From Candidatus Omnitrophota bacterium (GTDB taxonomy: Bacteria > Omnitrophota > Gorgyraeia > Tantalellales > Tantalellaceae), in assembly GCA_024277375.1 (NCBI GenBank), contig JAJRVD010000023.1, forward strand, positions 1 through 38,690: a stretch of DNA of 38,690 bases. The letters are read 5' to 3'. A program made the position numbers and the translations under genes. The notes beneath the pieces were generated by a model. It had not been told where the DNA came from. It searched no databases and was given only the letters and a program-made list of their open reading frames with translations. Numbering within the stretch: position 1 is the stretch's first letter; every line of letters begins with the position of its first letter. This document shows positions 3,001 through 23,197 of this stretch, piece by piece.

Positions 3001-6000
3001 GATGTAACGGCTTCAAGCGCTAATACCGATGTTGGACCATTTGCCGGAGGGAATGTGGCAAGTATTGTCAACTCGTACTATTCCGGCACGGCCTCCAATA
3101 TCGGCGCCGGAAGCGCGAATACGACTGGCACTCAGGAAGCGGCGCCCGCGAACTTTTACTCGTCGGCGCACAACGTTTACGACACGCAGGCGCCGCTCTG
3201 GGATTTTACCTCTGTCTGGGACGAATTTTCAGGGTCATATCCTCACCTTTCATACGAATGGTCCCTGACGATAACGACGCTCCTGCAATTACAGAACATG
3301 GAGCTTGACCTCGCGGCCGGCTACGTTCTTGGCGGGGATATCGCCGCCGGTATAACGGCGCATATGAACCGGAACGGTTCGGTATATTACGGGTTCGCCC
3401 CTGTCGGGAGTTCGAGCCCATTTTTTACCGGTTCTCTGGACGGGCGGAACTTTACGATCAACGGTCTCTATATAAACCGGCCCGGCACCGATTACGTGGG
3501 GCTTTTCAGCGATGTCACCTCGGCAGGGTCGATAAGTAATGTCGGCCTCTTAGGCGGGAGCGTGACGGGTTACGACAGCGCGGCGGCGCTTGTGGGGTAT
3601 AACCAGGCACCGGTAACCAACAGTTATTCGGATTTACCGGTGACGGGCCTGGGGAACCAGGCGGCGGGGCTTATCGGCGAGAATTACGGTACGCTTACCG
3701 GTTGTTACGCCGCGGGCGACGTAAACGGCGGCCGCCATTACACGGGTGGACTTGTGGGATACAACGAGAGCGATATCACGGACTCGTACGCGACGGGCAA
3801 CGTGACGGGCGCGGGAAAGTATACCGGCGGCCTGATCGGCGGGACTGGAGGAGGCTCCGGTTATTCTATATCCCGCTCGTATACGACGGGGGAGGTAAAA
3901 GGCGCCGGCGATTACACGGGAGGTCTGATAGGCGACGTCGGTGGTTCCGCTACGGCGATAACGGACTCTTACGCCACAGGGGACGTTTCGGTCACCGGGA
4001 CCGGCTCTTACGCGGGAGGCCTTGTAGGCCGGCTCGGCAGCGGGAGCTCGATATCTTGGTCCTACGCGGCGGGCGATGTGACCGGCAACGCGGCCGTCGG
4101 CGGCCTGGTGGGATACAACCTCGGCGTGGTTACGGACTCGTACGCGTCCGGGACGGTGACGGGCCGCGGTGACAAGATCGGCGGCCTGGCGGGGGAATCC
4201 GCCGCCGCTTCTTCGATCACCTCATCATACGCGACGGGTAATGTGACGGGAAAAGGCGATGTCGGCGGCCTTGTCGGAGCGACCAGCGCCACGGTCCGGA
4301 ACTCCTACGCCACGGGGAACGTAACGGGTAATGACGGGTCGAACAGCTATGTCGGCTCCCTGGTGGGGTATGACGCCGGCGGGACTTTCACCAATAACTA
4401 CTATTACAGCGGAGCTACCGTTACGAACAACGGCGCGGGCGGGACGAATACGGCTGGCGGTACGGCCGAGGCGACACTCGCGAACTTTTATTACCCGACA
4501 CACGCGGTTTACGGGGCGGGTACGGCAAATCCGTGGCTTTTTGGCGCTGAATGGGTCGCGTTTTCGGACAGATTGCCGCATCTGGAATATGAGTGGTCTT
4601 TGACGATAACGACACTTCTTCATCTTCAGAACATGTCGCTGGACCTCTCGGCCGATTATGTGCTCGCGAGGGACATCGACGCAAGCGTAACCTCGTATAT
4701 GAACTGGGACGGGACGAGGTATCAGGGATTTGAGCCCGTGGGAAACAGCGGTACGAAATTTACCGGAACTTTTGACGGCGCGGGTTTTCATATAAGCGAT
4801 CTTTATATAAACAGGCCTAATACGATTTATGTGGGGTTGTTTGGGTATCTATCCGGAGCCGCGATAAGCAATGTCGCTTTGCTTGGGGGAAGTGTGACAG
4901 GTGATGACAACACCGGCAGCCTGGTTGGCGACAGTAGGAACAATTCCAGTATCACTAACTGTTATGCCACAGGCAGCGTAACCGGTGCTGGAGCTGTCGG
5001 TGGCCTGGTCGGATTTACCAGGGACAGCTCGATCACTAATTCTTATGCCACCGGGGATGTAACTGGCACATGGAGCGATATCGGCGGCCTTGTGGGTGAC
5101 AATTATTGGAATGGCGTTATCAGTAACTCGTATGCTACGGGTGACGTGACAACCAGCCATTGGGGCGCGGGCGGTCTGGTCGGCGGGAATTACGGGAGGA
5201 TCGTTGATTCTTATGCCACCGGAGACGTTACTATCACAGGTACTTTTTTTATTTCTTATGCCGGCGGTCTGACCAGCTGGAATTACGATGACGCTGAGAT
5301 CATTAACTGTTATGCTACGGGGACGGTAACGGGTATTAACGAATATGTGGGCGGCCTGGTCGGTGAAAACTGGGGTAATGCCGTGATCAGGAACTCCTTC
5401 TCGACAGGCGACGTGACGACTGCTGACAGCACGGATGGTTATATCGGTCCTCTGGTAGGGTTCAACGATACTACCGCGGTCATCGACAACAGTTGGTATT
5501 CCGGTACCGCGTCAAATGGCGGCACAGGAGGAGTAAATAACCTCGGCACTCAAGAAACGACTCCCGCGAATTTTTATTTATCAACCCACAGCGTTTATAC
5601 GCTGAATTCTCCGGTTTGGGATTTCGCTTCGACCTGGGTCGAGTTCTCGGACCGCTATCCGCACTTTTCGTATGAATGGTCGCTGGCGATAACGACGTAT
5701 CTCCAACTTCAAAACATGGCTCTCAATCTTTCGGCCGATTATGTCCTGGGCGGAGACATAGACGCTACGGTAAGCCGGCACATGGATTGGGACGGGAGCG
5801 AATATCAGGGTTTTACCCCGGTCGGCGATAATGGCGCGTCTTTTACGGGCACTTTCGACGGCGCGGGATACATTATCAGCGATCTTTATATCAACAGGCC
5901 CGTGACGGATAATGTGGGCCTGTTCGGCAAGACTTCGGGTGCTTCGGTAAGCGATACGGTTATACTTGGCGCGGCCATAACAGGAGATGATAATGTTGGT

Positions 6001-7395: not shown

Positions 7396-7740
7396 TACGC
7401 GACGGGGAACGTGACCGGCGGCGCTTCCGTCGGCGGACTTATCGGGTCTTTTTCCGGCGGTGCCGTTACACGGTCTTATTCGGTCGGTATGCCGACCGGC
7501 GCGCAGAGCGCGACTACCGGCGGGTTGATAGGTTCGGACAGTAACGGTACATACACCGCGAACTACTGGGATACCGAAACGTCCGGTTTGTCGACAGGCG
7601 TAGGCGATCAGAATATGGCTAACGTAACGGGAAAAACGACAGCACAAATGATGACGCAGACAACGTTCATTCCCGGCACAAATGACTGGAATTTTAACAC
7701 TGTATGGGGTATAGTCGCGGATGAGACTTTTCCGTACCAT
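6580..7740 (+). repeat. GLUG module 7 and terminal cap (start of a third super-module)
   Basis: This starts at the YEW codon at 6580, which is 3327 bp after the one at 3253. It contains the in-frame TAA at 7393. After two further GLUG units it ends in NYWDTETSGLSTG, then TTAQMM and a W-x-F-x-x-VWGI stretch leading to FPYHLW. That sequence is typical of the end of a GLUG block in other bacterial proteins. Confidence 0.7.
7393..7395 (+). other. Single in-frame TAA interrupting the giant gene
   Basis: Upstream the frame reads VLVTD and downstream it reads YATGNVTGG, the two halves of the usual VTDSYATGNVTGG motif. The stop replaces the conserved serine and is one base away from TCA. The frame then stays open for about 3,770 codons. 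TAA is the ordinary stop in this window (carB, purF, icd, purL and purQ use it), so reassignment is not supported. It could be a recent nonsense mutation, a consensus error, a population variant or a read-through site. Confidence 0.9.
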
Positions 7741-10700
7741 TTATGGAGGTATGCTTCAGTACCCCACGGTGTGTCCGGTAGAGTTTATCAGGATATGGGT
7801 GTAACTGATATAGGTTCCGGAGTGAATATTCCTCTTCTGGTCAATGGCGCGAGTGTGGACTCGGACAGTACGTACGCTAACGGGTTCTATTATTTTCTTC
7901 TCGAAGGCAGTCAGATCGATGCTTCCGACGCGGTCCTGGTTTATATCGATAATAACGCTGTGGACGGTAATACCGTGACACGGGTGGATACCGGCGGCGC
8001 GGCCGGGGCGGATATCTACGGCGGTACGGTCATCGCGCGCAGTGAGGGTTCGGCCGCGGCGGTGACGTCGTCGTTCAGCGCCGCGCTGGGGGCGCTTTCG
8101 GACAGCGATATTATATATTCCGTAAACGGTACTACGGGCGACCTTACCATAAATGGCAATTTTGCCGTCACGGCGGGCACTTATAGCACGGGTTCGGAGA
8201 ACCTTACGGTAACCGGTACGACCCTTATAGAAAACGGAGGGACGTTCAAACTTGACAGTACAAGCGACGCGTCCACGTTTACCGCAGGCGGTACCATAAC
8301 GAATTCGGGCACGGTTACCCTGGGTGTGGATTATAACGGCTTGACCATAGAGCCTTCATCCGGAGTGGTGATATTTACGGGCAACGATATAGATTACAAT
8401 ACGAATTTGGTTACGTTAAAGGGTATAGATTATGACCCGGACGTTAATATGGACGAAATGGGAGATACGATAGTCCTGGGCGATTCAAATTGTGTATTCG
8501 ACGGCATAACGATAGGGGCGAACACTACCTTTAACGCGGCGGGATTTGACTTCGCGATGAGCGGTAATTTTGTGAATAGCGCTACGGGTACATTCGTGGC
8601 GCCTAGCGGTATAGTAACATTTAACGGAACAAGCGGTGTGCAGCAAATAACAACGGGCGGTACGGACGCGAGTCATGATTTTTACAATATGGTCATAGAT
8701 AATACAGGTACAAGCGTACAATTGCAGGATGACCTTGCGCAGGCAGCAGGCGGCGTATTGACGATGACATCGGGCACACTGGAGTTGAACGGGAACACGT
8801 TGACGCTCGGCGCGGACCTTTCCCCGACAGCCGGAACCATAGCTATCGGTACGGGAACGCTTGACGGAGCGTCAACTTACAACGTGGTCATAGATACGGG
8901 CGGCACGGTTACACACGGCGCGGGGACTCTGAACGCGCTGGACTTTTCGGTGACGGGCACGGGAACATATACATGTTCGGGGACCTCGGCCATAAACGTG
9001 GCGGGTGAGCTGATAATAACTTCGTCTAACTGGACCTCCGGCGGTTCGGCGGTAACGATGACAGGTGCCGCGGGAAGCGTGAACGCTTCACAGGCTCTTA
9101 ATAACCTGACCATAGCTGACGGGGCGACGACAAGTATCCTGACCAACGATCTGACCGTCGGCGGTAATTTAGTTGTGGGAGGCGGCGTGAGCGGTGTGTT
9201 CGACACGAATTCGAAGAACCTTGCGGTTACAGGCACCACTACCGTAAACGCGGGAGCGATATTCAACCTTGACGGTACAAACGCGGCATCGACCATTACG
9301 ATAGCCGATACACTGACGAATAACGGCACGTTCACGTTAGAGAACGGTACGAATACATTGACGATAACCGCCTCCGGCGGAGTGGTCACCTTTACGGGCG
9401 GCGGCATCGACTATAACGGTAACGCGGTAACGCTTACAAGTATAGATTACGATCCTGACGTTAATCTTACCGGCGCGAACAGCGCGATAGTCCTGGGGGA
9501 TGCCAATTGCGTATTTGACGGTATAAATATAGGCGCGGGGACGGTATTCGACACGGCCGGGTATGATTTTACGATGAGCGGTGACTTTGTGAATAACGCC
9601 ACGGGCACGTTCACTTCAGGCACGAACACGGTCACTTTCGCCGGAGTAAGCGGAGTACAGCAAATTACAGCGGGAGGAACGGACGCGAACCACGATTTTT
9701 ACAATATCGTGATAAATAACTCAGGTACAAGTGTACAGCTCCAGGATGACTTTACGCATGCGGCGGGCGGCGTTCTTACGATAACAAGCGGCACGCTGGA
9801 CCTGGGCGGTAACACCTTAACGCTCGGCGCGGACCTTTCGGTCTCGGCGGGTACGATAGCTGTGGGCGCGGGCACATTGAACGGCGGTACAGGTTATGAC
9901 GTAACTGTCGGTACGGGGTCTACCGTGACACAGGGTACCGGTACATTGAACGCTTTGGATCTGTCAATAACAGGAAGCGGTACGTATACGTGTTCAGGCG
10001 CGTCGAGTATAAATGTGGCGGCTAATTTGGTAATAACGTCGACTAACTGGACGGAAGGAATCTCCACAATAACGATGACGGGCGCCGCGAGGACCGTAAA
10101 TGCCACACAGAGTCTGAACAATTTAACCATAGCCGATGACGCTACGACAAGCATTCTGACAAATGATCTGACGGTTGGCGGTAATTTGGTGATAGGTGAT
10201 GGCGCAAGCGGTACACTTGATACCAATTCCGGGAACCTTACAGTGACCGGAACGACGACTATAAATAGCGGAGCTGTTTTCAATCTCGATGGTACAAGCG
10301 CGACGTCAACTCTTGCAATATCGGATACGTTGACAAATAACGGTACGCTCACGTTAGCGAATGACACTAATACCCTAACTATAAGGGGCTCAGGCGGTCT
10401 GGTGATCTTTACAGGCAATGACATTGATTACAATACCAATTCAGTTGTATTAACGCGTATTGATTATGATCCGGATGTAAACATGAACGAGAACGGCGAC
10501 GTGATAGTTCTCGGTGATTCCAATTGTTTATTTGACGACATAACGATAGGGGCGAACACTACCTTTAACGCGGCGGGATTCGACTTCGCGATGAGCGGTA
10601 ATTTTGTGAATAGCGCTACGGGTACATTCGCGGCGCCTAGCGGTATAGTAACATTTAACGGAACAACCGGTGTGCAAAGTATAACCGCGGGCGGTACGGA

Positions 10701-13700
10701 CGCGAGCCATGATTTTTACAATGTGGTTATAAATAACACAGGTACAAGCGTACAATTGCAGGATGACTTTACCCAGGCGGCAGGCGGTACGCTTACTTTG
10801 ACAGCGGGCACTCTGGAACTGAACGGCAACACGCTGACTCTCGGGGCGGACCTTTCGGTTTCGGCAGGTACCATAGCCATAGGAACCGGTATATTATCGG
10901 GTAGTTCGATCCATAACGTAACCGTCGGTACCGGCTCTACGCTAACGCAAGGATCCGGCACATTGAACGTGCTGGATCTGTCTATAACCGGTACCGGGAC
11001 CTATGGCTGTTCAGGCGCCTCGAATATAAACGTCGCGGGGGACCTGTTAATAACGTCATCAAATTGGACCGCCGGAAGTTCCACGGTGACGATGCTGGGG
11101 ATCGGTTCCGACAAGGGCATAAACGCTTCACAAGCGCTGAATGACCTGACGATAGCGGACGGCGCCCTGGTATGGGTCGACACTAACGACCTTGTTGTCG
11201 GCGGCGACCTTGTCGTCGGCGGCGGGGCAAGCGGAGAGTTCGATAACGATTTCCGGAATCTTACGGTGATCGGCACGACAACTGTTAAAAACGGCGCTAT
11301 TCTTGCTCTCGATGATCCATCGGGCAGCTTAACCTTCACCATAGGCGATACTCTTACGAATAACGGTATTGTAAGGTTAATGGGCACCGTGAATCAGTTC
11401 ACCCTCGCGGGTTCAGGCGGTGTAGTGGCCTTCACGGGTAACGACATAGACTACAATGGAAAATCAGTCACGTTCAAGAGCATAGATTATGACCCTGACG
11501 TCAATATGGACGAGACAGGCGACACGATAGTCCTGGGCGACTCCAACTGCGCGTTCGACGGTATAACGATCGGCGCGAATACCCTGTTTGACGCGGCGGG
11601 ATTTGACTTCGCGATCAGTGGAAATTTTGCTAATAGCGGCACCTTTACACCGGGAGCGGGGACAGTGACCTTTAATAACGCCGGAGCGCAAACCCTTAAT
11701 GCCGGAACTTCAAATTTTAACAATATCGTACATTCCGGCACGGGGACTCTCAGTGTCTTAACCAATAATATGGGGGTAAACGGCACATTGCTCAATTCCG
11801 CCGGTATATTTGACGCGAACGGCTTTGCCGTAACGGTTACGGACCTTACAACAATATCTGGCGGGCAGTATTTGGCCAAGACCGGTACGCAAACATTCGA
11901 TGGCGGGCTGACGGTCTCCGGCGGTGTGTTTACCGGGGCAACCGGAGATGTGGATATAAACGGTAACGTTGCCGTCTTAAGCGGAACGTTTACGGCTCCC
12001 GCGGCGGCAGGGACTTTTACTGTTTCCGGGAATTGGGTAAAGACCGGTGGTACGTTCGACAATAACAGCGGTACCATTGTATTTGACGGTTTGACAAGCG
12101 CTATTTTCCAGAGCGGCGGCAGCAATTTTAATAATGTCGAGGTCAATAAAACTGCCTCCGATAACGCTGATGACGACCTTACTTTTCAGACGGATAACCT
12201 TCTGATCACAGGGATCTTGACAGTGACCGACGGGGAACTCGTCCAGAACGGTGTAGATCTTACGTCCGGCGCGGTAACCGTCGCCTCTGGAGGCAAGTGG
12301 ACAAACCATTCCGACGGTGACATTACTTTGTCGGGAGACGTGACGAACGATGGTATGATAGATTTTGACGCGACAACGGACACGACAGGTATACGCATCC
12401 GTTCATCGGTTGACGGGACGTATCGCGACTGGAAGGGGTCAGGCAGCTTCAGTATGGCGGATGTGGATTTTAAAGACCAGTCGAGGACGAGCGGAGTTCC
12501 CACGTATGTCCTGGTCGATAACGGTAAAGATTCCGGACATAACCTGAACTGGGTCATCGCGGGGATAGGCGATATATACGGTGTCGTATTTTCGGACGAG
12601 GGTACGACACCGGAGAGTTCCGGAGTGACGGTAGCTCTCTACGTGTATTTCGCGTCGGGTTCCACTCTCTCCTCGTCCATGACCGTTTCGTCTTCCGGCC
12701 AGTTTTCGTTCGTAAGTACGGGCGCGGGCGAAGGTGATATCCTTATAGCCTATATCGACGGCAACGCCGCGAAAAAAGGCGCGGCCGTTACGCGCATGAC
12801 CGACGCGGCCGTTACGGACTTTGATATCTATATCGGTGATATTATTATCCGCGGCGAGTCAGCGGTGGCTGTAAATAACACCGATCTGGCCAACGCGGAC
12901 AACGGCGATACCGATATCGAATATAATGTCGATGGCAGTGGTGATTTGACGATATCCTCCGGGACGAAACTTCTGGTAAAGTCCGGCGTGTTCACGCCGG
13001 GAGGTAACGTTACGGTGTCGGGCGCCGGATGCGAGATAGACGGTACCTTTAATCTGAATTCCGGTACCCTGACCATAGGCACCGCTAATACACTTGATGT
13101 GGATGGTACGCTTAATATAACGACCGGATCCGTCTCGGCCGCGGGTAGTGTGGATAACTCAGGAATCATAAATATCGACGTAAACGCCGGATCAATGGAC
13201 ATAAATGCCGATTTTATCAATACGGGAACAATTGACCTTACGGGCACATCAAGCACGATAAACGCAGCCGGTAATTGGACAAATTCAGGCACATTCACCG
13301 CCGGCACCGGTACGGTTTATTTTGACGGTACCGGTACACAGAGTCTCGATGCCGGCTTATCCGCTTTTTATAGCATCGAACATTCCGGATCGGGAACTTT
13401 ACAGCTCATAACGAACGATCTTGCCGCAGGCGGTACATTGACGAATTCAGCGGGTACATTTAACGCGAACGGTCGTGCGGTAACAGTTCCGGGCCTGACT
13501 ACCGTATCGGCAGGCGTGTACCAGGCAGGGAGCGGTACACAAGCTTTCAACGGCGGGCTTACGGTATCCGGCACCGGAACATTTATCGCTTCTTCCGGAA
13601 ATGTTGGTATAAGCGATCTTACGGTATCGGGCGGCGCTTTTACCGGTTCGACAGGGGACGTAACCGTGAGCGGTGATGTCGTATTTTCAAACGGCACGTT

Positions 13701-16700
13701 CACGGCACCGGACGCTACAGGAAGTCTTACCGTTTCGGGGGATTGGACAAAAACGGGCGGAACATTCGATAATAGCGGCGGCACGGTCGTCTTTGCCGGC
13801 GCGGGCACGCAAAGCCTTAACTCCGGGGGAACAGGGGCCGCTAATGATTTTAACAATATTACGGTTTCAGGTTTGACCCTTCAGCTTGCCGGAAATGCCC
13901 TGGAAGCAGACGGTACGCTTCTTATCCAGTCAGGAAAGGTAGTAGACTTAAAAGGGCGGAACCTGACACTTGTGACACTGGATAACGAGGGTACGCTCCG
14001 GCTTGTCGGGACAGAGACCGTCAATATAACAACGATGGATTCCGATTCCGGGCTTGTGAAGTATTACGCGCCCTCCGGAGCCGTAAACATTACGAGTGAC
14101 CTTTCGACATATTATAACGTGGAATTTGATTCAGACCTGACCGCGGACGGCACGGCGATATTTACATTGCCGGCGGCGGTCGTAACGCTTAACGGCGCTC
14201 TCACGGTCACGGACGGTACGCTGGCGATAGGCGCGAACACGCTTAATGTAGCGGGCAATGTCGTTAATGACGACACCATCACAATATCTACGGGAACCTT
14301 TGATGTCGACGGAGATTTCGATGTCGGTACGCTTACTTCAACAGACGCGGCCGTTATAAACGCGGGGGGCGATTGGAGCGGTGTTGATGTTTTTAGCGCG
14401 GGAGCGAGTACGGTGACGTTTGACGGCGCGTTGGACCAGATGATAACAACCGGCGGGGATGCCTTTAATAACCTTGTGCTGAACAATACGGGATCTTCCG
14501 GCAGTGACGATATTATCATATCCGGAGCGCTTGATGTGAACGGCACTCTTACCATAACCAACGGTGATCTCGATATTTCAACTAATGACCCCGCGGTGAA
14601 CACTTCAGGTGATGTGACCGTAGGCGCAAACGGTTCGGTAGACGTTTCCTCGAGAACTGCTGACTGGACGTTTGACGGCACAAGTATATTTACGGACCTT
14701 TCAAGCGGGCAGGACCTGGAGGATGTTGTTCTTAGCGGTACATCTCTTACTTTTGTCAGCTCAATGCTGGTAGAGACAATGACAGTTACGTCCGGTACTT
14801 TAGCGCTTGGCAATTCCGGGAACATTTTGACAATAGACGGCACCGGAACGCCATTCAGTGTATCGGGTACGTTTGATGACGGTACGGATTCGAGGGTAAG
14901 GTATACGGGTAACGGCGCCGCAAACATAGCCGCGTTAACATATCATGACCTTGAAGTGAACGATTCCGGTAATGGCGTTATATATACATTGACGGGGGGT
15001 ACAACGGTATCCGGAGCATTATACGTAACAGGTGGTACGATAGCGATAGATGCAAATACGTTCAATGTAATAGAAAATGTTACCAATGACGATACTATAA
15101 CGATATCCACGGGGGCATTTGACGTTAACGGCAACCTTGATGTCGGTACGCTCGATTGTTCGTCCGCGGCTGTAGTAAACGTGGCGGGCAATTGGAGCGG
15201 GGTGGACCTTTTTGCCGCCGGCACAAGCACCGTAACGTTTGACGGGCTTACAAGTGCGGCTCTGACATCCGGTGGTGTCGGTAACAGTTTTTATAACCTT
15301 CGGGTAGACAAGACCGCCGCGGCCGATGCCGATGACAACCTTACTTTCCAGACCGGCGACGTTATGATCACCGGTTCTCTCACCGTGATCGACGGTGAGC
15401 TTGTTCAGGATAATATCAACCTTACTACCGGCGCGGTAACCGTTCAGGCCGCCGGCAAGTGGAGCAATTCTTCGGACGGTGACGTTACTTTGTCCGCGGG
15501 CGTGTCGAATGAAGGCACCATAAGCTTTGACGGACTGACGGACGACGGTATAAGCATACGCTCGAGCGTGGACGGCACGCGCCGGAACTGGTCGGGTCAG
15601 GGTACCTTCGGCATGACGGACGTGGACGTCAAGGACCAGGCCTGGACGGAGACGACGCCGCCTTACATCAGCGTTACAGGAGGCACGGACTCCGGCAATA
15701 ACTCTAACTGGCTTTTTATCGGTCCCGACCAGATAGGAGGTACTGTATATTCTGACGAAGGTGTCAATGTTATCACCAGTGATGTCGATATAACATTGCA
15801 TATTTATTTTGCTTCGAGTTCCATAATAAACTTTACAACGGCGTTAGGCGGTGTAGGTACATACGCGTTCACAGGCCTTGAGTTCAATGCCGGAGATATT
15901 GCGTCGGTGTATATGAATGATCACGCGATTTATGAAGGCACAACCATCGGTCGTCTTGGAAACACTTCGGCCGCAGGGTTTGATATATATGCGGGTGATG
16001 TCATCGTTCGTTCAGAAACCGCTAGCACCATAACTAACGGTAATCTGGCCATCTCGGAAAACGGTGACGATGATATCAAGTACAGTGTGACGGGCGGCGC
16101 TCTCGCGATCGATCCGGGATTTAAACTTCTGGTGTGGGGGTCTGATACTTTTATCCCGGGTGGGGATGTGACGGTGACCGGTGCCGATTGTGAGATAGAT
16201 GGTACGTTCAATATTAATGAGAACACCTTTACGCTTGCTGCTTCAGGCAATCTGGATGTTGAGGGGGCATTGACAATAACTACAGGGGCAGTTGTTCTCG
16301 CGGGTGACATGGATAACGCAGGTACGGTAAATATAGACAATAACACGGGATCTCTTACGGCAGGCGGAAGTATTGTAAATTCCGGCCTTATAGATCTTAC
16401 CGGAACAACAGGTACAATAGGTGTAACCGGTGCCTGGACAAATACCGGAACGTTTACTGCGGGATCAAGTACGGTTACTTTCGATTCCGCAAATGCAGGA
16501 ACGGTCGTGGTAACAGGATCCTCACCATTCTATAATATTACGTTCAATAACGCTTCGGGTGAGTGGGTCTTACAGGATACGCTGGACGTGAACAACACGT
16601 TGAGAATAACCTCGGGAACCTTGGACCTTAATAGTAAGGATCTTGACCTCACAGGGGCAACCTTTATTAATGATGGTACCATGCGAGCTAATGGGGCCGA

Positions 16701-18708
16701 GACAATGACAAACTTTAACAATGATGCCGATTCCGGAACCCTGGAGTACACCGGTGCCGGTGGAGCCGCTCTTAACGCCGGGTATGACTATTATAATCTG
16801 GTATTTTCAGGCGCGGGGAATTATAGTTTGACGAATGACTTGACCATAGCCGGTAATTTTATCAATAGTGCCACGTTCTCAACAATCGGCGCGGTGACTT
16901 TTGATGGGACGGAAACCGGCAAGACCATTACATCCGGCGGAGCGGCTTATGCTGACGTGGTAATTAATGGTTCCGGAGGCGCGTGGAGCCTTCAGGATAC
17001 CGCTGACATAAACGGCAATCTAAGTATTACCACAGGCACTCTGGACCTGGCGGGGAATGACCTTGATCTCGCGGGCACATTCATCGGTGGAGGCACTTTA
17101 AGGCTTACCGGCTCCGAAACCCTGACAGGGTTTACCAACGATGATACTGCCGGGATCGTCGAGTATTACGGAGCGGTCTCTTGTGATCCGGGCCAGTTAA
17201 TGGGCAACAGTTATTACGATCTTGATTTCTCGGGTACGGGAACATACACTTTTACAAACAATTTGGTGATAAATAATGATCTTACCATATCTGATCCCGC
17301 GGGCATAGTAGATCTGGTTGACAATGATCTTACTCTGGCTGTTGGTTCTGTTTTTACAAATAATGGAACATTAAGGACCGACGGGACAGGGGCAATGACC
17401 AATTTTGATAATGATGACGACTCCGGAACCATAGAATATAACGGTACCGGCGGGGTTGCTCTTAACGCCGGATATGATTACTATAATATTGTTTTCTCAG
17501 GGGTGGGTACATACACTTTGACCAACGATTTGACGATTGCCGGTAATTTTACCAATAGTGCCACGTTCTCAACATCTGGCGCGACGACTTTTGACGGAAC
17601 AGAGACGGACAAAACTATTACTTCAGGCGGGGCAAGTTTTGGTAATGTTGAATTGGATGGTGTAGGCGGAGAGTGGATACTCCAGGACGATATGGATATA
17701 AACGGTAATTTAACTATGACAAACGGGATATTGGACCAGAACGGCAATACTCTCAGGTTAAGTGGAGACTATAACGGCGCCGACGGTACATTTACCGCTA
17801 ATTCCGGCGAGGTTATTCTGGATGGTACGGATCAGGCCATAAACGGTGCCGTTACGTTCTATGACCTGACAAAGGTAGATTCCGGTTCGATCACTTTTGA
17901 CAGCTCTGAGGCGGCAATGTTGACAATTGCCGGCACGCTGACATTTAAGGGGCTTGACTCGAACAACAAACTTATTCTTAATAGCGACGTTCCGATGTTA
18001 TACGTCGATGGCCTGCCGATCGGTGGATTGTATTGGAGGATAGATATTGCGAACAATCTGTATGACATAAATTTCCTCGATGTTAATAATTCCCTTAACG
18101 TGGGCGCGACAACCATATACACGGGGGGTAACAGTAAGATCTCCTACTCTTACGGCTGGCAGCTTAATCCGTCAGAGGAAGGGACCACGGAGGTGGAAGA
18201 GCCGATCGATACGCGGCGTGATACCGCAAGCGAAGTGTTTGCCCCCGGCATATTCGATAACATGGGATTTGTCGGCGCTTCAACGGACAATACCAATGTT
18301 GTGAATATCGGAGCTGACCAGTGGACCTCGAGCGAAGATTTTTACCATAAAAAATATAAGTATGGTAAGTACCGTACAGTTGTTATTGTATATGAAGGAA
18401 AAGTCTCGGTGGCGCCGTATGACGAGAAGGGCGCGAAACTTGAGGAAGAAGTTCTTTTAACCGATGGTCAGAAAGCTACGGTTGAGGCGACCATTGCCGA
18501 GAAGGAAAATTTGAAGAGAAGCCGCGAGAAACATTATGGGAGAGAGATGTATTTCTTTAAGAGATTTAAAGTGTCGATAAAGGTGCATGATGACGCCGAC
18601 GGTGAGTTTTTGGTTGTTCCCTATGATAAGAAGGGTCCGCGATATGACGAGGCTCTCCTCATGAAAGCAGGGGACAGCCTCGAGGAGGTCATAGATATTG
18701 AGGATTAA
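7411..18708 (+). CDS. Giant secreted repeat protein, C-terminal part (same frame as the preceding ORF)
   Basis: The nominal start is GTG at 7411, but the frame is open from 7396 and the first residues are mid-motif. There is no signal peptide, so as a separate product it could not be exported; it is best read as the continuation of the upstream ORF. It holds 3,765 residues. In order: the last GLUG units (to about 7740); a B-repeat/Ig-like domain (about 7771-8160); a tandem array of about 339-residue units (about 8140-11640); further Thr/Gly/Asn-rich beta-solenoid repeats of the TLTNNGTF type; two more copies of the Ig-like domain (about 12568 and 15727); and a charged tail (about 18165-18708) with two VxPYDxKG repeats. 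There is no autotransporter barrel or LPXTG signal at the C-terminus, which fits a two-partner-secretion passenger. A TpsB barrel lies 2.3 kb beyond the 3' end on the opposite strand. Confidence 0.8.
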   Translation: MTGGASVGGLIGSFSGGAVTRSYSVGMPTGAQSATTGGLIGSDSNGTYTANYWDTETSGLSTGVGDQNMANVTGKTTAQMMTQTTFIPGTNDWNFNTVWGIVADETFPYHLWRYASVPHGVSGRVYQDMGVTDIGSGVNIPLLVNGASVDSDSTYANGFYYFLLEGSQIDASDAVLVYIDNNAVDGNTVTRVDTGGAAGADIYGGTVIARSEGSAAAVTSSFSAALGALSDSDIIYSVNGTTGDLTINGNFAVTAGTYSTGSENLTVTGTTLIENGGTFKLDSTSDASTFTAGGTITNSGTVTLGVDYNGLTIEPSSGVVIFTGNDIDYNTNLVTLKGIDYDPDVNMDEMGDTIVLGDSNCVFDGITIGANTTFNAAGFDFAMSGNFVNSATGTFVAPSGIVTFNGTSGVQQITTGGTDASHDFYNMVIDNTGTSVQLQDDLAQAAGGVLTMTSGTLELNGNTLTLGADLSPTAGTIAIGTGTLDGASTYNVVIDTGGTVTHGAGTLNALDFSVTGTGTYTCSGTSAINVAGELIITSSNWTSGGSAVTMTGAAGSVNASQALNNLTIADGATTSILTNDLTVGGNLVVGGGVSGVFDTNSKNLAVTGTTTVNAGAIFNLDGTNAASTITIADTLTNNGTFTLENGTNTLTITASGGVVTFTGGGIDYNGNAVTLTSIDYDPDVNLTGANSAIVLGDANCVFDGINIGAGTVFDTAGYDFTMSGDFVNNATGTFTSGTNTVTFAGVSGVQQITAGGTDANHDFYNIVINNSGTSVQLQDDFTHAAGGVLTITSGTLDLGGNTLTLGADLSVSAGTIAVGAGTLNGGTGYDVTVGTGSTVTQGTGTLNALDLSITGSGTYTCSGASSINVAANLVITSTNWTEGISTITMTGAARTVNATQSLNNLTIADDATTSILTNDLTVGGNLVIGDGASGTLDTNSGNLTVTGTTTINSGAVFNLDGTSATSTLAISDTLTNNGTLTLANDTNTLTIRGSGGLVIFTGNDIDYNTNSVVLTRIDYDPDVNMNENGDVIVLGDSNCLFDDITIGANTTFNAAGFDFAMSGNFVNSATGTFAAPSGIVTFNGTTGVQSITAGGTDASHDFYNVVINNTGTSVQLQDDFTQAAGGTLTLTAGTLELNGNTLTLGADLSVSAGTIAIGTGILSGSSIHNVTVGTGSTLTQGSGTLNVLDLSITGTGTYGCSGASNINVAGDLLITSSNWTAGSSTVTMLGIGSDKGINASQALNDLTIADGALVWVDTNDLVVGGDLVVGGGASGEFDNDFRNLTVIGTTTVKNGAILALDDPSGSLTFTIGDTLTNNGIVRLMGTVNQFTLAGSGGVVAFTGNDIDYNGKSVTFKSIDYDPDVNMDETGDTIVLGDSNCAFDGITIGANTLFDAAGFDFAISGNFANSGTFTPGAGTVTFNNAGAQTLNAGTSNFNNIVHSGTGTLSVLTNNMGVNGTLLNSAGIFDANGFAVTVTDLTTISGGQYLAKTGTQTFDGGLTVSGGVFTGATGDVDINGNVAVLSGTFTAPAAAGTFTVSGNWVKTGGTFDNNSGTIVFDGLTSAIFQSGGSNFNNVEVNKTASDNADDDLTFQTDNLLITGILTVTDGELVQNGVDLTSGAVTVASGGKWTNHSDGDITLSGDVTNDGMIDFDATTDTTGIRIRSSVDGTYRDWKGSGSFSMADVDFKDQSRTSGVPTYVLVDNGKDSGHNLNWVIAGIGDIYGVVFSDEGTTPESSGVTVALYVYFASGSTLSSSMTVSSSGQFSFVSTGAGEGDILIAYIDGNAAKKGAAVTRMTDAAVTDFDIYIGDIIIRGESAVAVNNTDLANADNGDTDIEYNVDGSGDLTISSGTKLLVKSGVFTPGGNVTVSGAGCEIDGTFNLNSGTLTIGTANTLDVDGTLNITTGSVSAAGSVDNSGIINIDVNAGSMDINADFINTGTIDLTGTSSTINAAGNWTNSGTFTAGTGTVYFDGTGTQSLDAGLSAFYSIEHSGSGTLQLITNDLAAGGTLTNSAGTFNANGRAVTVPGLTTVSAGVYQAGSGTQAFNGGLTVSGTGTFIASSGNVGISDLTVSGGAFTGSTGDVTVSGDVVFSNGTFTAPDATGSLTVSGDWTKTGGTFDNSGGTVVFAGAGTQSLNSGGTGAANDFNNITVSGLTLQLAGNALEADGTLLIQSGKVVDLKGRNLTLVTLDNEGTLRLVGTETVNITTMDSDSGLVKYYAPSGAVNITSDLSTYYNVEFDSDLTADGTAIFTLPAAVVTLNGALTVTDGTLAIGANTLNVAGNVVNDDTITISTGTFDVDGDFDVGTLTSTDAAVINAGGDWSGVDVFSAGASTVTFDGALDQMITTGGDAFNNLVLNNTGSSGSDDIIISGALDVNGTLTITNGDLDISTNDPAVNTSGDVTVGANGSVDVSSRTADWTFDGTSIFTDLSSGQDLEDVVLSGTSLTFVSSMLVETMTVTSGTLALGNSGNILTIDGTGTPFSVSGTFDDGTDSRVRYTGNGAANIAALTYHDLEVNDSGNGVIYTLTGGTTVSGALYVTGGTIAIDANTFNVIENVTNDDTITISTGAFDVNGNLDVGTLDCSSAAVVNVAGNWSGVDLFAAGTSTVTFDGLTSAALTSGGVGNSFYNLRVDKTAAADADDNLTFQTGDVMITGSLTVIDGELVQDNINLTTGAVTVQAAGKWSNSSDGDVTLSAGVSNEGTISFDGLTDDGISIRSSVDGTRRNWSGQGTFGMTDVDVKDQAWTETTPPYISVTGGTDSGNNSNWLFIGPDQIGGTVYSDEGVNVITSDVDITLHIYFASSSIINFTTALGGVGTYAFTGLEFNAGDIASVYMNDHAIYEGTTIGRLGNTSAAGFDIYAGDVIVRSETASTITNGNLAISENGDDDIKYSVTGGALAIDPGFKLLVWGSDTFIPGGDVTVTGADCEIDGTFNINENTFTLAASGNLDVEGALTITTGAVVLAGDMDNAGTVNIDNNTGSLTAGGSIVNSGLIDLTGTTGTIGVTGAWTNTGTFTAGSSTVTFDSANAGTVVVTGSSPFYNITFNNASGEWVLQDTLDVNNTLRITSGTLDLNSKDLDLTGATFINDGTMRANGAETMTNFNNDADSGTLEYTGAGGAALNAGYDYYNLVFSGAGNYSLTNDLTIAGNFINSATFSTIGAVTFDGTETGKTITSGGAAYADVVINGSGGAWSLQDTADINGNLSITTGTLDLAGNDLDLAGTFIGGGTLRLTGSETLTGFTNDDTAGIVEYYGAVSCDPGQLMGNSYYDLDFSGTGTYTFTNNLVINNDLTISDPAGIVDLVDNDLTLAVGSVFTNNGTLRTDGTGAMTNFDNDDDSGTIEYNGTGGVALNAGYDYYNIVFSGVGTYTLTNDLTIAGNFTNSATFSTSGATTFDGTETDKTITSGGASFGNVELDGVGGEWILQDDMDINGNLTMTNGILDQNGNTLRLSGDYNGADGTFTANSGEVILDGTDQAINGAVTFYDLTKVDSGSITFDSSEAAMLTIAGTLTFKGLDSNNKLILNSDVPMLYVDGLPIGGLYWRIDIANNLYDINFLDVNNSLNVGATTIYTGGNSKISYSYGWQLNPSEEGTTEVEEPIDTRRDTASEVFAPGIFDNMGFVGASTDNTNVVNIGADQWTSSEDFYHKKYKYGKYRTVVIVYEGKVSVAPYDEKGAKLEEEVLLTDGQKATVEATIAEKENLKRSREKHYGREMYFFKRFKVSIKVHDDADGEFLVVPYDKKGPRYDEALLMKAGDSLEEVIDIED
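7771..8160 (+). repeat. B-repeat/Ig-like domain, copy 1
   Basis: This begins VSGRVYQDMGV and runs through VLVYIDNNAVDGNTVTR to ADIYGGTVIARSE and DIIYSVNG. The opening G-x-V-Y-x-D and the Y-F/S-F strand pattern resemble SdrD B-like or carboxypeptidase-regulatory-like folds. It marks the change from GLUG repeats to the second repeat type. Confidence 0.55.
8140..11640 (+). repeat. Tandem array of about 339-residue adhesin units (four copies, last incomplete)
   Basis: The landmark IDYDPDVNM recurs at 8425, 9442, 10459 and 11482, giving periods of 1017, 1017 and 1023 bp. Each unit repeats the order FTGNDIDYN, IDYDPDV, VLGDSNCVFDGI, FDFAMSGNFVN, DASHDFYN, GTSVQLQDD, NTLTLGADLS, TYTCSG, LTIADGATTSILTNDL. 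The fourth copy diverges after about 11640. Copies are kept exactly in frame. Copies 1 and 3 share a nearly identical 127-bp patch. Confidence 0.85.
12568..12980 (+). repeat. B-repeat/Ig-like domain, copy 2
   Basis: This begins GDIYGVVFSDEGT, continues VALYVYFASGS, then VTRMTDAAVTDFDIYIGD and IEYNVDGSGDLTIS. It is followed by GAGCEIDGTFNLN. The stretch before it (SSVDGTYRDWKG, then VDFKDQ and DSGHNLNW) is also duplicated before copy 3. Confidence 0.6.
15727..16130 (+). repeat. B-repeat/Ig-like domain, copy 3
   Basis: This begins DQIGGTVYSDEGV, continues ITLHIYFASSS, then AGFDIYAGDVIVRSE and DDDIKYSVTGG. It is followed by GADCEIDGTFNIN, as in copy 2. Copies 2 and 3 are about 3.16 kb apart, so each starts a new block of solenoid repeats. 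Confidence 0.6.
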
Positions 18709-18710
18709 GT

Positions 18711-18889
18711 AGGGTTGTGCAAAACAACAAAATGTGCCATTTGGGCTGTGTCTTAATTTGTTTTGCGAATAGCCGCATATAACATATTGTAGGGGTTCGA
18801 TTTATCGAACCCGATATAACGGGCTTGATGAATCAAGCCCCTACATTATGACGCAGTTTGAGTGAAAAAACAGCGTTTTGCACAAGCCT
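18711..18889 (+). repeat. MITE-like palindromic element, copy A
   Basis: The terminal inverted repeats are GGGTTGTGCAAAAC (18712-18725) and GTTTTGCACAAGCC (18875-18888). The 56-bp core at 18789-18844 has an outer GTAGGGG/CCCCTAC stem. Inside it are two hairpins, GGTTCGAT/ATCGAACC and GGGCTTGAT/ATCAAGCCC, separated by GATATAAC. The element starts just after the stop of the giant gene and ends about 70 bp before the fecR start codon. It has no coding capacity. Confidence 0.85.
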
Positions 18890-18914
18890 GAATGATAAAG
18901 AATAAATTGATGGC

Positions 18915-18938
18915 AGGGGAACGGCATGCCGTGCCCCT
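18915..18938. repeat. 24-bp palindrome, GGCATGCC family (copy 1)
   Basis: An AGGGGAACGGCA arm is followed by its near-perfect inverse TGCCGTGCCCCT. A perfect version occurs at 38489-38512. An upstream ATG for the next gene at 18926 falls inside this palindrome and is therefore not a credible start. Confidence 0.75.
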
Positions 18939-18958
18939 GTATGAACGAGGAGGCGGAA

Positions 18959-19423
18959 ATGAAAATGCTTAAATTGTTGATCGTTGTTTGTGTGATGACC
19001 GGGCTATTAACTCACAGTGTGTCGGCCGAAGGGGTAAAACGCACCGGAAAGATCATAGAGCTGAATGGTAAGGCGGAGGTTCTATTCTCCGACGGGAAGA
19101 GCCTTCCCGCCTGGCGGGGTATGGTTCTTAATGAAGGTGACACCCTAAAGACATCAAAAGAGTCTTGGATTGTTTTGAGCTTGGGTGGGAAGGAAAGAGC
19201 GACCGTTGAAATAGATGAAAAGTCAGAACTTTTGCTCAGCAGACTCAGGGTAGATGAAGGCGAGGATGATCAAAAGACCCTACTGGATCTCGCAGTAGGT
19301 AAGATCCTTATTAAAGCGAATAAACTGCGTAGTGAAAAATCAAAATTTGAGGTAAAAACACCGACGTCTCTTATCGGAGTGAGAGGTACGACCTTTGAGG
19401 TTAACGTAGAAGAGAAAGAATAG
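18959..19423 (+). CDS. Secreted FecR-domain protein
   Basis: This 154-residue protein has a signal peptide (MKMLKLLIVVCVMTGLL, likely cleaved after VSA at about residue 22). One FecR domain follows. The N-terminal part, GKIIELNGKAEVLFSDGK with a hydrophobic stretch and L-N-E-G-D-T-L-K-T, is typical of the family. So is the C-terminal signature FEVKTPTSLIGVRGTTFEV. FecR domains occur in anti-sigma regulators but also in stand-alone secreted proteins; with no transmembrane or DNA-linked part, this is the latter kind. The start at 18959 is chosen because GAGGAGG at 18947-18953 sits 5 bases upstream and the signal peptide begins there. It follows the giant adhesin gene on the same strand, and the adhesin's tail has FecR-like strands, so a joint role at the cell surface is possible. 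The function is unknown. Confidence 0.8.
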   Translation: MKMLKLLIVVCVMTGLLTHSVSAEGVKRTGKIIELNGKAEVLFSDGKSLPAWRGMVLNEGDTLKTSKESWIVLSLGGKERATVEIDEKSELLLSRLRVDEGEDDQKTLLDLAVGKILIKANKLRSEKSKFEVKTPTSLIGVRGTTFEVNVEEKE

Positions 19424-19474: not shown

Positions 19475-19500
19475 GTTAAATAGGGACGTCCCTACTTAAC
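19475..19500. terminator. 26-bp palindrome between convergent genes; candidate bidirectional terminator
   Basis: GTTAAATAGGGAC and its inverse GTCCCTACTTAAC form a 26-bp dyad with one mismatched pair. It lies between fecR and the convergent lysine-rich gene and contains the latter's TAA stop codon. The A/T-rich outer arms give short T-runs on both strands. It also looks like a dispersed repeat (core AGGGACGTCCCT), so termination is inferred. Confidence 0.5.
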
Positions 19501-20938
19501 TGCCATTGTTTTTGCGGGCATTTATAATGTAGTCACATGCCGAAAGATAATATTCCGTGCGAGAATATCCGGGTGAAAGGGTTTTAACCTCTCCAAATTT
19601 GTTGTACGCCTCAGTGTAATTTTTGGATTTGTATAATTTTAGGGCCTCTTTGTATAGCAGGGAGGCTTTTGTTTTGGCGTTGGGTTTCTTTGCGGCTTTT
19701 TTGTCTTTACGTTTTTTGTCCTCCATAGCCTTAAGGGAGGCGGAAGGCTTTGATGTTTGCAGAGCTTCGTCATGTTTCTGTTGTTCGTTCATATAAGCGC
19801 GCCTGGCTTCGACAGCTTTACGTTCGGCTTCGCGTTTAGCCATTTTTGCGGCATGCTTTTTTTGTTTTTCGGCCTTTAGCTTTTCTTTATATGACTCCCG
19901 ATTTTTCTTATAAGAGCGCTTAGCTGCTTTGGCTTTTTTCTTAGAGTTTGCCCTACGAGCAGCTTTTTTATCCGCTAGATTTTGTTTAAGTAGAGCGGCT
20001 TTTGCCTCTTTGTCTTTTTTCCTTTGAGCGACGCGAGCTTTCCTTTTGGCATTACGATCGGATTTTTTTTTGGCAAGTTTAGCTTTTTTCGCGGCTTTTT
20101 CTTCAGCATGCTTTAGCTTTTTAGCTTCGAGAGCGGCCTTTTTCTCCGCACGTTTTTTCTTTAATGCGGCGGTTTTGTCGCGTAGTACTTGTTTGTTTTT
20201 TTCTATTTGAGCTGTTCTTTTCGCGTCACGTTTTTTCTTGTTTTCAGCGCGTTGAGCTTTTTCGGCAGCGCGTTTTTTCTTTAGTTCCGCGGACTTAGCT
20301 TCTTTTGCCGCTTTTTCTTTCTCGAGCTGTATCTTTATTTTCGCGTCGCGGTCTTTCTTTTCTTGTGCGCGTTGAGCCTTTTCGGCAGCGCGTTTTTTCT
20401 TTAGTTCCGCGGCTTTAGCTTCTTTATCTGCCATGTGTTTTTCAAGTTTTGCCTTTTTCTCGGATTCGTGTTTTGCTTGAAGTTCCAGGCGTTCCTGCTT
20501 TTTTTCGTCCCAAGTGTTCTTTAGCTTTCCCAATTTGGCTTTGCGGTCCTGCTTTTCTTTTTTGTCGCGGGCCTTTCTTTCTTGTGACTCGGCTTTACGG
20601 ATAAATCCGCGGAGTTCAGGATCTTTCGTGATCTTAAGGGCTTTTTTCCACTCCGCACGGGCTTCTTTTAACTTGCCTTCTTCAAAAAGCCGGTTTCCTT
20701 CCTCAAACGATTTACGAGCTTCTTCTCTTTTCTCTCGATGTTTTAATTCTTTCTCCACTTTTTTTAGATTTCTTTCCGCCTCTCGGATCAGATCTTTCAT
20801 GCTGCGCATGTAAGAGGGCATCTTTTTCTTTACGGTTTCGGAGGAGGCCTGTATGGTTTCAGATCCTTCCGAGAAGGAAAGGGTGGAAGTGAATAAAACA
20901 ATTAGCGCTGTGGCTACAACGGTGACTCTTCTGGACAT
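19496..20938 (-). CDS. Secreted lysine/alanine-rich long-helix protein with TPR-like ends
   Basis: This 480-residue protein starts with a signal peptide (VTVVATALIVLFTSTLSFS). A TPR-like hairpin follows at about 75-115 (FEEGNRLFEEGKLKEARAEWKKALKI). About 270 residues of highly charged Lys/Ala/Glu/Arg sequence follow, predicted as one continuous helix or coiled coil. A second TPR-like pair ends the protein (LYKEALKLYKSKNYTEAYNKF, then YYLSACDYIINAR). The segment AAELKKKRAAEKAQRA is repeated 40 residues apart and is nearly identical in DNA (around 20247 and 20367). The start has GAGGAG about 6 bases upstream. It lies 120 bp downstream of the TpsB gene on the same strand, so they are probably co-transcribed. 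TolA-like periplasm-spanning or scaffold roles are possible, but there is no recognisable TolA or TonB C-terminal domain. Confidence 0.7.
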   Translation of the reverse strand: MSRRVTVVATALIVLFTSTLSFSEGSETIQASSETVKKKMPSYMRSMKDLIREAERNLKKVEKELKHREKREEARKSFEEGNRLFEEGKLKEARAEWKKALKITKDPELRGFIRKAESQERKARDKKEKQDRKAKLGKLKNTWDEKKQERLELQAKHESEKKAKLEKHMADKEAKAAELKKKRAAEKAQRAQEKKDRDAKIKIQLEKEKAAKEAKSAELKKKRAAEKAQRAENKKKRDAKRTAQIEKNKQVLRDKTAALKKKRAEKKAALEAKKLKHAEEKAAKKAKLAKKKSDRNAKRKARVAQRKKDKEAKAALLKQNLADKKAARRANSKKKAKAAKRSYKKNRESYKEKLKAEKQKKHAAKMAKREAERKAVEARRAYMNEQQKHDEALQTSKPSASLKAMEDKKRKDKKAAKKPNAKTKASLLYKEALKLYKSKNYTEAYNKFGEVKTLSPGYSRTEYYLSACDYIINARKNNGS

Positions 20939-21058: not shown

Positions 21059-23197
21059 TTACGGGAGTTCAAATGCCAAAGGTCTTATTTTTGCCTCTTC
21101 CTTGATCTTTTGCCATATCTCTTTAGCTTTCTGTACTTTACCGGATTTGTAAAATTGCATTGCCAGGTCATTGTCTGTTTTTAACTTTTTCTCCTGGTCA
21201 ATACTGCCGGATACATATTCACGAGCCTGATCGGACAAGGATTTAATGGTCCGGGTAACTTTTTCGTAATATTTTTTTGCCTCATCGAGATTTCCCTTCG
21301 CTTGCGCGGCCTCGGCCAGCTGCATGTATTCATACAAGTTTTCGCGAAGAGGACTTTTTTTGCGGCTGAGTTCCGCGTCAACTAAGCTTTGAGAGGTTTT
21401 CTTTAAACTGTTTTCATTCATGATCTTCTTTACTCGAAGCATCTCGTCGTATATTTTATCTTCGAAACTTACAGAAAAATGAAAGCGAGAATTAGATGTT
21501 TCGGTTATCCCCTGGGTCGCGCCGGGCATTACAAAGCCCCATTCAAGCCTTATGAGAGCTTGCTGATATAAACGTATTCGAATGCCCGCGCCTAAGCTGG
21601 CAAAATAGACTTCATCCTTGTTTGCGGGGTTTGGATCTTCGCCTTTTCTTTTGCCGTACGCGTAGTCAAAGAAAGTGACGCCGGTGATGTTGTCGCGAAG
21701 AGGGCGCGCGTCGTAGGGGAGTTTCCAGTCTTCGGGCACAAAAAATGCCGGTATTTGCACTTCAAGTCTGCTTTGATAGGCATCATCCGCGGAAAAATCA
21801 CCGGAAGCGTATCCTCTTACGGAGTCAATGCCGCCTAAAGAAAATTCTTCCTGGGACGCCATTTTTTCTGTAGCGAATTGACCCTTTAGCTGCAGGCTTC
21901 CCTGAAGGTTCCAGGGTAAAGGCCTCTTGTGGGTAAGGTCCAGATTGAATTTAGTAAATGTGTTTTCGGCTCCGTTGTCTTTTCCCGTAGAGGTTCTTGA
22001 TGAGAGTCGGCTTTTCCTGTTCGCGCCAAAAGCATTCACGCCTTGTGAAATCTCAGGGCTGAAGTTGGTAACCCCGCCGAAACCCCGGTGAATGAAATTT
22101 CCTCCTATACGTAGGATCCGGAGCCTGTCTCTGCCGGTTGTTCCCGTGATCTGTTTTACGGTTTTATCTTTAACGTCCAGTCCCAGGTAGACCTCGCCTT
22201 TATATTCTTCTTTTTTGAAAAGATCCTGGTACACAAAACCGCTGAAGTTTTCGGAACGGGAACTAAGGCCTACGAACGCGTAATCTTTTTTCGAAGTCGC
22301 TTTGCTGAAACTGTATCCATACATAAAGGTAGTGGCAAAGTTGGTAATGGGAATCCTGTGATAAACGTAATTGCCAAGAAAGTATGTTGAGTACGTGTAG
22401 CCGTAAAGCAGAGTATCGTCAACAAAAAGAAAATTGTTGTCTCTGAATCCGATACCCTTTCTTTCCCGCCCACTGGAAGGGGAGCCTTCTCTGTCGAAAG
22501 AACCTGTTATGTGAATAGGGAAGTGAGGCTCTACGTTCAGGATAACATCGGTTGTTTTTGGCTTTTTGCCGGCCTTAAGGGTAGCCTTGGCCTCTCTGTC
22601 AGGGTTTTTGTTCATAATCTGAAGACTTCGGGACATCGCGTCGTATCGGAGAACATCTCCCGGACGGATGCTCCAATAATTGCGAAGCATGTCGTTCTCA
22701 AAAAAGGCGTGATCCGGAATTTCGAGTTCTCCCATATGAGCTTCCACGACTTGTAGCTTGACGACACCTTCCTTTACATCCTGAGGGGGGATAAAGCAGG
22801 CGGAAATTATGCCGCGTTTAAGGTACTCTCTTTCGAGACGTTTGGCCAGGATGTTCAATCTCTCGATGCTTATTTCCTTTCCTTCATACTTCGCGAGCAC
22901 TTCGGCAAATTCCTCCGGCGGATAACTTTCGCATCCAAGAAGATCTATTTTTTTAACAAAAAAAGCGGCACCGCCTTCAAGCTCATCCGGTTCTTTTTCT
23001 TCATCTTCAATAATTTCCTCAGGTTTAAAACGCAATTTTTCTTCTACTTCTTCACGCACGGGTCGGTCGACCTCTTTCAACGCTCTGTCAGGTGACGTAT
23101 CGGCTTGGGCTTGGAAAAAGGGGTAGGCCATAAAAGAAAAAGCAATACAGCCGACAATAATTTTTGACAGGATCTTTTTTGGTTTGTATGACGACAT
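21059..23197 (-). CDS. TpsB/FhaC/ShlB-family two-partner-secretion outer-membrane transporter with C-terminal helical extension
   Basis: This 712-residue protein starts with a signal peptide (cleavage likely after AQA at about residue 33) and an acidic linker. A POTRA_2 domain follows at about 77-155 (FFVKKIDLLGCESYPPEEF, KGVVKL-type strand) and a ShlB-type second POTRA at about 156-225. A 16-strand-type barrel follows to about 583. The barrel contains LGGIDSVRGYASGDF at about 455, the VRGY/F motif at the tip of loop 6 that defines Omp85/TpsB transporters. After the expected last strand (FHFSVSFE) there are about 129 extra residues with two TPR-like hairpins, which would lie in the periplasm; ordinary TpsB proteins end at the barrel. 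It is the natural candidate exporter of the giant repeat protein, though separated and convergent. The Shine-Dalgarno AAGGAG is about 13 bases from the ATG, somewhat far. Confidence 0.88.
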   Translation of the reverse strand: MSSYKPKKILSKIIVGCIAFSFMAYPFFQAQADTSPDRALKEVDRPVREEVEEKLRFKPEEIIEDEEKEPDELEGGAAFFVKKIDLLGCESYPPEEFAEVLAKYEGKEISIERLNILAKRLEREYLKRGIISACFIPPQDVKEGVVKLQVVEAHMGELEIPDHAFFENDMLRNYWSIRPGDVLRYDAMSRSLQIMNKNPDREAKATLKAGKKPKTTDVILNVEPHFPIHITGSFDREGSPSSGRERKGIGFRDNNFLFVDDTLLYGYTYSTYFLGNYVYHRIPITNFATTFMYGYSFSKATSKKDYAFVGLSSRSENFSGFVYQDLFKKEEYKGEVYLGLDVKDKTVKQITGTTGRDRLRILRIGGNFIHRGFGGVTNFSPEISQGVNAFGANRKSRLSSRTSTGKDNGAENTFTKFNLDLTHKRPLPWNLQGSLQLKGQFATEKMASQEEFSLGGIDSVRGYASGDFSADDAYQSRLEVQIPAFFVPEDWKLPYDARPLRDNITGVTFFDYAYGKRKGEDPNPANKDEVYFASLGAGIRIRLYQQALIRLEWGFVMPGATQGITETSNSRFHFSVSFEDKIYDEMLRVKKIMNENSLKKTSQSLVDAELSRKKSPLRENLYEYMQLAEAAQAKGNLDEAKKYYEKVTRTIKSLSDQAREYVSGSIDQEKKLKTDNDLAMQFYKSGKVQKAKEIWQKIKEEAKIRPLAFELP

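Follow-up and report, generated by a model that had tools for sequence, protein, structure and literature searches.

We found that a TpsB transporter encoded in the window, the whole stretch of 38,690 nucleotides analysed here (contig JAJRVD010000023.1 of the Candidatus Omnitrophota assembly GCA_024277375.1), carries about 130 residues beyond the last strand of its barrel, and that this helical extension (ext) is genetically tied to a separate exported helical protein (LYS). The window protein is a variant TpsB, and ext and LYS together probably form a portable barrel-docking module. On balance, and judging from sequence comparisons and structure models, we favour the reading that ext is a periplasmic receptor that binds LYS and that the pair docks barrels and is not an export step. 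The features of the window are collected in Table 1.

Table 1. Features of the window, with positions on the 38,690-nucleotide stretch
Feature	Position	Strand	Remarks
Giant TpsA passenger gene, GLUG and beta-repeat regions	1..18708	+	pI 4.1; 5' part on contig C106
FecR-domain protein with signal peptide	18926..19423	+	
LYS, 480 aa: Sec-type signal peptide, core helix, TPR, lysine-rich charged rod, C-terminal TPR	19496..20938	-	
LYS C-terminal TPR hairpin, residues 424-478	19505..19669	-	
LYS charged helical rod, residues about 120-418	19685..20581	-	30% K, 11% E, 20% A
LYS N-terminal TPR hairpin, residues 73-115	20594..20722	-	
LYS core helix, residues 33-66 (SETVKKKMPSYMRSMKDLIREAERNLKKVEKELK)	20741..20842	-	Retained in the shortest partners and in fusions
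TpsB transporter with C-terminal extension, 712 aa	21059..23197	-	Open frame, Pfam, AlphaFold2, PDB fold match
C-terminal periplasmic extension ext, residues 582-712, four helices as two TPR-like hairpins	21062..21454	-	AlphaFold2, alignment
16-strand beta-barrel, residues 228-578	21464..22516	-	AlphaFold2 model
POTRA_2 domain, residues 79-152	22742..22963	-	Pfam E 1e-16

The window protein has POTRA domains, a 16-strand Omp85 barrel, the VRGY/F loop motif (as GGIDSVRGY) and a TPS-domain passenger, as a TpsB should. A Pfam match to ShlB covers residues 216-492 (E 2e-28), and a genome search showed that this is the sole ShlB-family protein of its source genome. The AlphaFold2 model (21-row input alignment, mean pLDDT 81.5) placed a second POTRA domain at residues 154-224 and the last barrel strand at 570-578; its best PDB fold match was CdiB (6wim, E 3e-30), with FhaC also among the closest. 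The protein departs from other TpsBs in continuing past this strand; since stopping there is a usual and not a defining trait of TpsBs, we class it as a variant. The initial annotation had proposed that some 129 helical residues with two TPR-like hairpins follow the barrel, and the model bore this out, with four helices (residues 582-610, 616-633, 637-684 and 688-701; pLDDT 85-93) after strand 16. Folding of the extension as additional barrel strands, which would have spoken against that proposal, was ruled out by the same helices. A TPR_2 match at residues 624-647 scored 22.1 bits, under the Pfam cut-off of 27, and the model has helical hairpins. Because the strand number is even and the POTRA domains lie on the same side, the topology of the TpsB family suggests that ext is periplasmic. 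A plasmid search with ext alone gave no match, and a viral structure search with the TpsB model returned nothing relevant.

To place the tail among other TpsBs, we compared the residues that follow the barrel. Outside Omnitrophota and Auribacterota, 41 of the 44 TpsBs listed have -1 to 3 such residues, and the remaining three, of the Vampirovibrio type, have 54. In tailed Omnitrophota TpsBs the tail measures 127-137 residues and aligns end to end across 16 related proteins, so it is not a product of chance; mean pairwise identity among these 16 was 36% for ext versus 49% for POTRA plus barrel. Full-length tailed relatives found in a survey of the phylum share 42-58% identity with the window TpsB. 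A contig search with the single sequence found no relatives; an alignment query then found them, and those named were Candidatus Omnitrophota MAGs and one Auribacterota MAG. Searches for ext gave no match in 17 other TpsB-bearing genomes, in 43 further members of the phylum of the Auribacterota MAG G393 or in 241 genomes of the phylum of a Lentisphaerae record. A 2014 survey of the Omp85/TpsB superfamily reported no further domain profiles with the TpsB barrel (PMC4104836). Our literature searches, which took in few subscription journals, turned up no case of a C-terminal TPR domain on a TpsB. One TpsB of an untailed clade (L065, 5401-7467) ends in a 98-residue lysine-rich tail of a different kind.

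To relate the tail to its neighbour, we scanned the surroundings of about 60 Omnitrophota and Auribacterota TpsBs with profiles of the barrel, ext and the LYS N-terminal domain. LYS lay immediately downstream on the same strand (-24 to +533 bp) in 23 of the 24 tailed TpsBs with enough downstream sequence, versus none of 36 untailed ones (Fisher p 1e-15, uncorrected for kinship). In the exception, G098, ext lacks an adjoining LYS and a LYS gene stands at the end of another contig. On the barrel tree, tail status requires 9-10 changes, at least four of them forced by well-supported branches, and LYS changed with the tail in all three supported independent contrasts (p 0.25, too few for significance alone). 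Several untailed relatives (e.g. L042, L064 and L069) retain a stub of 15-18 residues like the start of ext; tail and LYS thus appear to have been lost jointly, several times. Upstream of two untailed TpsBs we observed a different charged-helix protein (L048, 6631-9072, where it bears TPRs; L050, 3-404), which is possibly a parallel solution.

At least two genomes also encode, by sequence, ext and LYS as a single fused protein. In G003, a single chain holds the TpsB barrel, a shortened ext and the LYS N-terminal domain. In G268, on a 1.28-Mb contig, the ext of the host barrel passes straight into YPYNLDKLIKMSEKSIKRIDRKL, the LYS core helix, and then ends; the region read yielded no LYS gene of its own. 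A joint alignment of ext and LYS for this kind of natural fusion was dropped when MAFFT put LYS rows on ext. G344 carries ext and LYS in one frame, but large stretches are missing inside this gene, which could be decayed or misassembled; in G280, a TPR of the LYS C-terminal type comes after a TpsB barrel. The initial annotation had suggested that the extension docks the barrel to the lysine-rich helix protein. Adjacency, joint losses and fusions fit docking as a genetic tie, and physical contact between the two stays the conjectural part of that suggestion.

The conserved element of LYS, as far as the sequences tell, is the core helix (consensus MPSYxxxLKxLIxEAExNIKKVDxEL), usually with one TPR after it, and not the lysine-rich rod: it is retained in the fusions and in the shortest partners, an 89-aa frame in G010 and a 112-aa frame in G008, which hold little besides the signal peptide and this helix. 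Among homologues the rod ranges from almost nothing to about 2000 aa with widely varying net charge, and the longer proteins are strings of TPRs and charged helices. The pI is 10.2 in the window LYS and spans 5.7-10.4 over the homologues, so the label 'lysine-rich', used at the outset, does not describe a conserved property of the partner. The LYS sequences inspected by eye have ordinary signal peptides with no evident lipobox cysteine, which suggests a periplasmic protein. TPR_Slam matched one LYS weakly, and no known peptidoglycan-binding domain was present in the LYS proteins scanned. It had also been remarked that this neighbouring gene has TPR-like ends worded similarly to the extension. 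The TPR-like ends are there and both wordings fall in TPR helices; the likeness between ext and the LYS TPR domain in a profile comparison (probability 91% over 82 columns) could be generic TPR similarity.

To see which proteins carry ext, we searched 384 genomes of the Omnitrophota phylum with the ext profile, independently of LYS. It located ext at 57 places in 56 genomes: 19 of these fall within TpsB-size frames (618-766 aa) and 38 within other frames, most of the latter at the end of frames of 883-4326 aa. More than 30 Omnitrophota genomes have the ext-LYS pair at the end of another kind of protein, a giant beta-barrel, and the Auribacterota MAG G393 has ext both on a TpsB-size frame and on a 2716-aa frame. 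Comparison of the ext and LYS searches by hand showed that LYS adjoins 16 of 17 evaluable TpsB hosts, with the divergent G038 LYS counted by its own profile match, and nearly all other hosts. Special cases among the latter are G268 (the in-cis fusion), G344 (ext and LYS in one frame) and G063 (a decayed fragment). The examined members of the second host type begin with DUF11 and Ig-like domains, continue with an extended series of beta-strands that match outer-membrane barrels weakly, and end in ext. AlphaFold2 modelled its last 986 residues as about 35 strands followed by helices of 28, 18, 48 and 15 residues, versus 29, 18, 48 and 14 in the window TpsB, and ext begins a few residues past the last strand in both models; with a pLDDT of 67.5 and a pTM of 0.40, only the general architecture of the second host model is usable. 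Its top Foldseek matches were outer-membrane barrels (SlpA/SDBC, LptD and TonB receptors), at low TM-score. L179, L181, L182, L194 and their relatives encode such giant single-chain proteins; these combine DUF11/Ig-like domains with some 35 beta-strands predicted at the C-terminal end, a putative barrel without a curated family. The presence of the pair on this second and much larger surface barrel makes it look like an undescribed accessory of outer-membrane barrels. Whether ext-LYS is a host-independent, previously undescribed docking module, common to two unrelated Omnitrophota barrel types and coupling giant surface proteins to the inner envelope, is in our judgement an even call.

In the docking reading, ext would hang beneath the pore as a periplasmic receptor domain for the Sec-exported LYS, encoded just downstream, and the N-terminal core helix of LYS would pack onto ext as the contact. 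More tentatively, the TPR and charged rod of LYS might tie the barrel to the rest of the envelope, either the cell wall or the inner face of the outer membrane, and the pair might brace or position a barrel that bears or exports a very large surface protein. Because the pair also occurs on a barrel that shares its chain with large Ig-like domains, we prefer a role that would suit both hosts, namely keeping the barrel in place in the envelope, to one in export, and bracing is the most likely role on these comparisons. As the LYS proteins scanned hold no known peptidoglycan-binding domain, bracing is deduced from architecture; rod length varies so widely, down to rodless short forms, that an anchor based on the rod would not be universal.

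An alternative concerns the passenger. Over 141 bp, the beginning of the window is identical to the end of contig C106 (L207), and the giant gene continues on C106, where it starts with a TPS secretion domain (PF05860); it is therefore a TpsA. PF05860 is also present in the passenger of a relative (L032), and C106 carries a second TPS-domain frame of 2116 aa. A single in-frame TAA at 7393-7395 breaks the giant gene, with the same frame resuming on either side, and may be a sequencing error, a population variant or a true nonsense mutation. The extension had initially been seen as a possible accessory for exporting very long passengers, a view that its absence from close homologues serving giants would weaken. 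Passengers of at least 1347, 1670, 2548 and 3078 aa do adjoin untailed, LYS-less homologues 48-52% identical to the window TpsB, the tailed G017 TpsB lies near a complete 1398-aa TPS passenger of ordinary size, and the pair also sits on a non-TpsB barrel. The export role for very long passengers is therefore not supported, and a link between the tail and passenger length was rejected. A related possibility, which we hold to be considerably less probable than docking, is that ext and LYS act as a periplasmic chaperone or holdase, in which TPRs and a basic rod hold the acidic unfolded giant and hand it to the POTRA domains. The window passenger is very acidic and the window LYS very basic, the pair adjoins a secretion pore, and TPRs often bind client peptides. 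However, the charge of LYS is not conserved, which weakens a lysine-rich electrostatic holdase as the general function; furthermore, the pair does not follow passenger length, the shortest LYS proteins lack both rod and TPR, and in the second host the large Ig-like part shares the chain with the barrel.

It is unlikely that ext-LYS instead controls the pore, either as a periplasmic cap or gate or as an assembly aid for barrels without a free C-terminal strand signal. The position of ext, just past the last strand in both hosts, is consistent with such control, and the minimal forms, ext plus one helix as in G268 and G010, would suffice as a cap. In addition, a PLxLEF-like motif is conserved at the end of most tailed TpsBs. 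But this motif is modelled as coil by AlphaFold2 and is missing in most giant-barrel hosts, relatives without ext retain the same barrel, and the long LYS rods would be left unexplained. That the tail is neutral TPR decoration and LYS a hitch-hiking neighbour held by operon structure is very improbable. TPR modules are common and mobile, and ext has changed more rapidly than the barrel; but a neutral neighbour would not be expected to be lost jointly with the tail, to fuse with it, or to move with it to a second barrel type.

The docking arrangement has partial counterparts in known systems. FhaC, CdiB and ShlB (type Vb TpsBs) have the POTRA domains, 16-strand barrel, VRGY motif and TPS-domain passenger in common with the window TpsB; they end at the last strand, whereas the window TpsB adds a 130-residue helical domain and a partner gene. 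In BamA-BamD, an Omp85 barrel works with a separate periplasmic TPR partner, which resembles TpsB-LYS; however, BamD is a lipoprotein on the POTRA domains, whereas here the proposed receptor is the C-terminal domain of the barrel protein, and the signal peptide of LYS looks ordinary. Periplasmic TPRs are likewise fused to, or work with, an outer-membrane barrel in Slam, PgaA, BcsC and AlgK/AlgE. In Slam, PgaA and BcsC the TPRs are N-terminal to the barrel, whereas ext is C-terminal, and we know of no LYS-like partner for these three. Deinococcus SlpA/SDBC and other envelope tethers combine a large outer-membrane barrel with a periplasmic helical part linking membrane and wall. SlpA/SDBC is the best fold match of the second host barrel, at a low TM-score (about 0.3), and the helical part of SlpA is N-terminal and in the same chain, whereas here ext is C-terminal and LYS separate. 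Among TPS accessory genes, bcpO and HMW1C, the latter a cytoplasmic glycosyltransferase, are, as LYS would be, third genes that assist two-partner secretion. The parts of a published account of such genes that we consulted describe neither a TPR-rod architecture nor a barrel extension (PMC5422565).

In the usual account, two-partner secretion is a minimal machine of two proteins, and its pore stops at the last strand. A lineage with a putative C-terminal pore receptor and a dedicated third protein, the pair grafted onto another barrel family as well, points to a general way of wiring barrels to the envelope interior. Giant open reading frames of unknown function are a known trait of Omnitrophota (PMC10066038), and the ext-LYS pair may offer a handle on how they hold or handle giant surface proteins.

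Other genes recur at these loci. A FecR-domain protein is found near 15 of 26 tailed versus 4 of 37 untailed TpsBs (with the fused G003 protein placed among the untailed), with such neighbours in the window and at L032, L036, L037, L040, L053-L056, L059, L061 and L071; it matches the LapA retention module weakly. CHASE2-GGDEF proteins were observed at TpsB/TpsA loci (L032, 5299-6978; L036, 1853-3526; L207, 10382-12076, the last by resemblance only), and these neighbours suggest that c-di-GMP controls the surface proteins. Small exported transglutaminase-like proteins with a weak BTLCP/LapG-family match stand beside TpsB and LYS in L038 (997-1485) and L033 (4235-4765). Finally, the stretch between the giant gene and the FecR gene (18711-18939) contains an inverted repeat, in which 18711-18725 pairs with 18875-18889, as well as several short palindromes; together they resemble a small mobile or terminator-type element.
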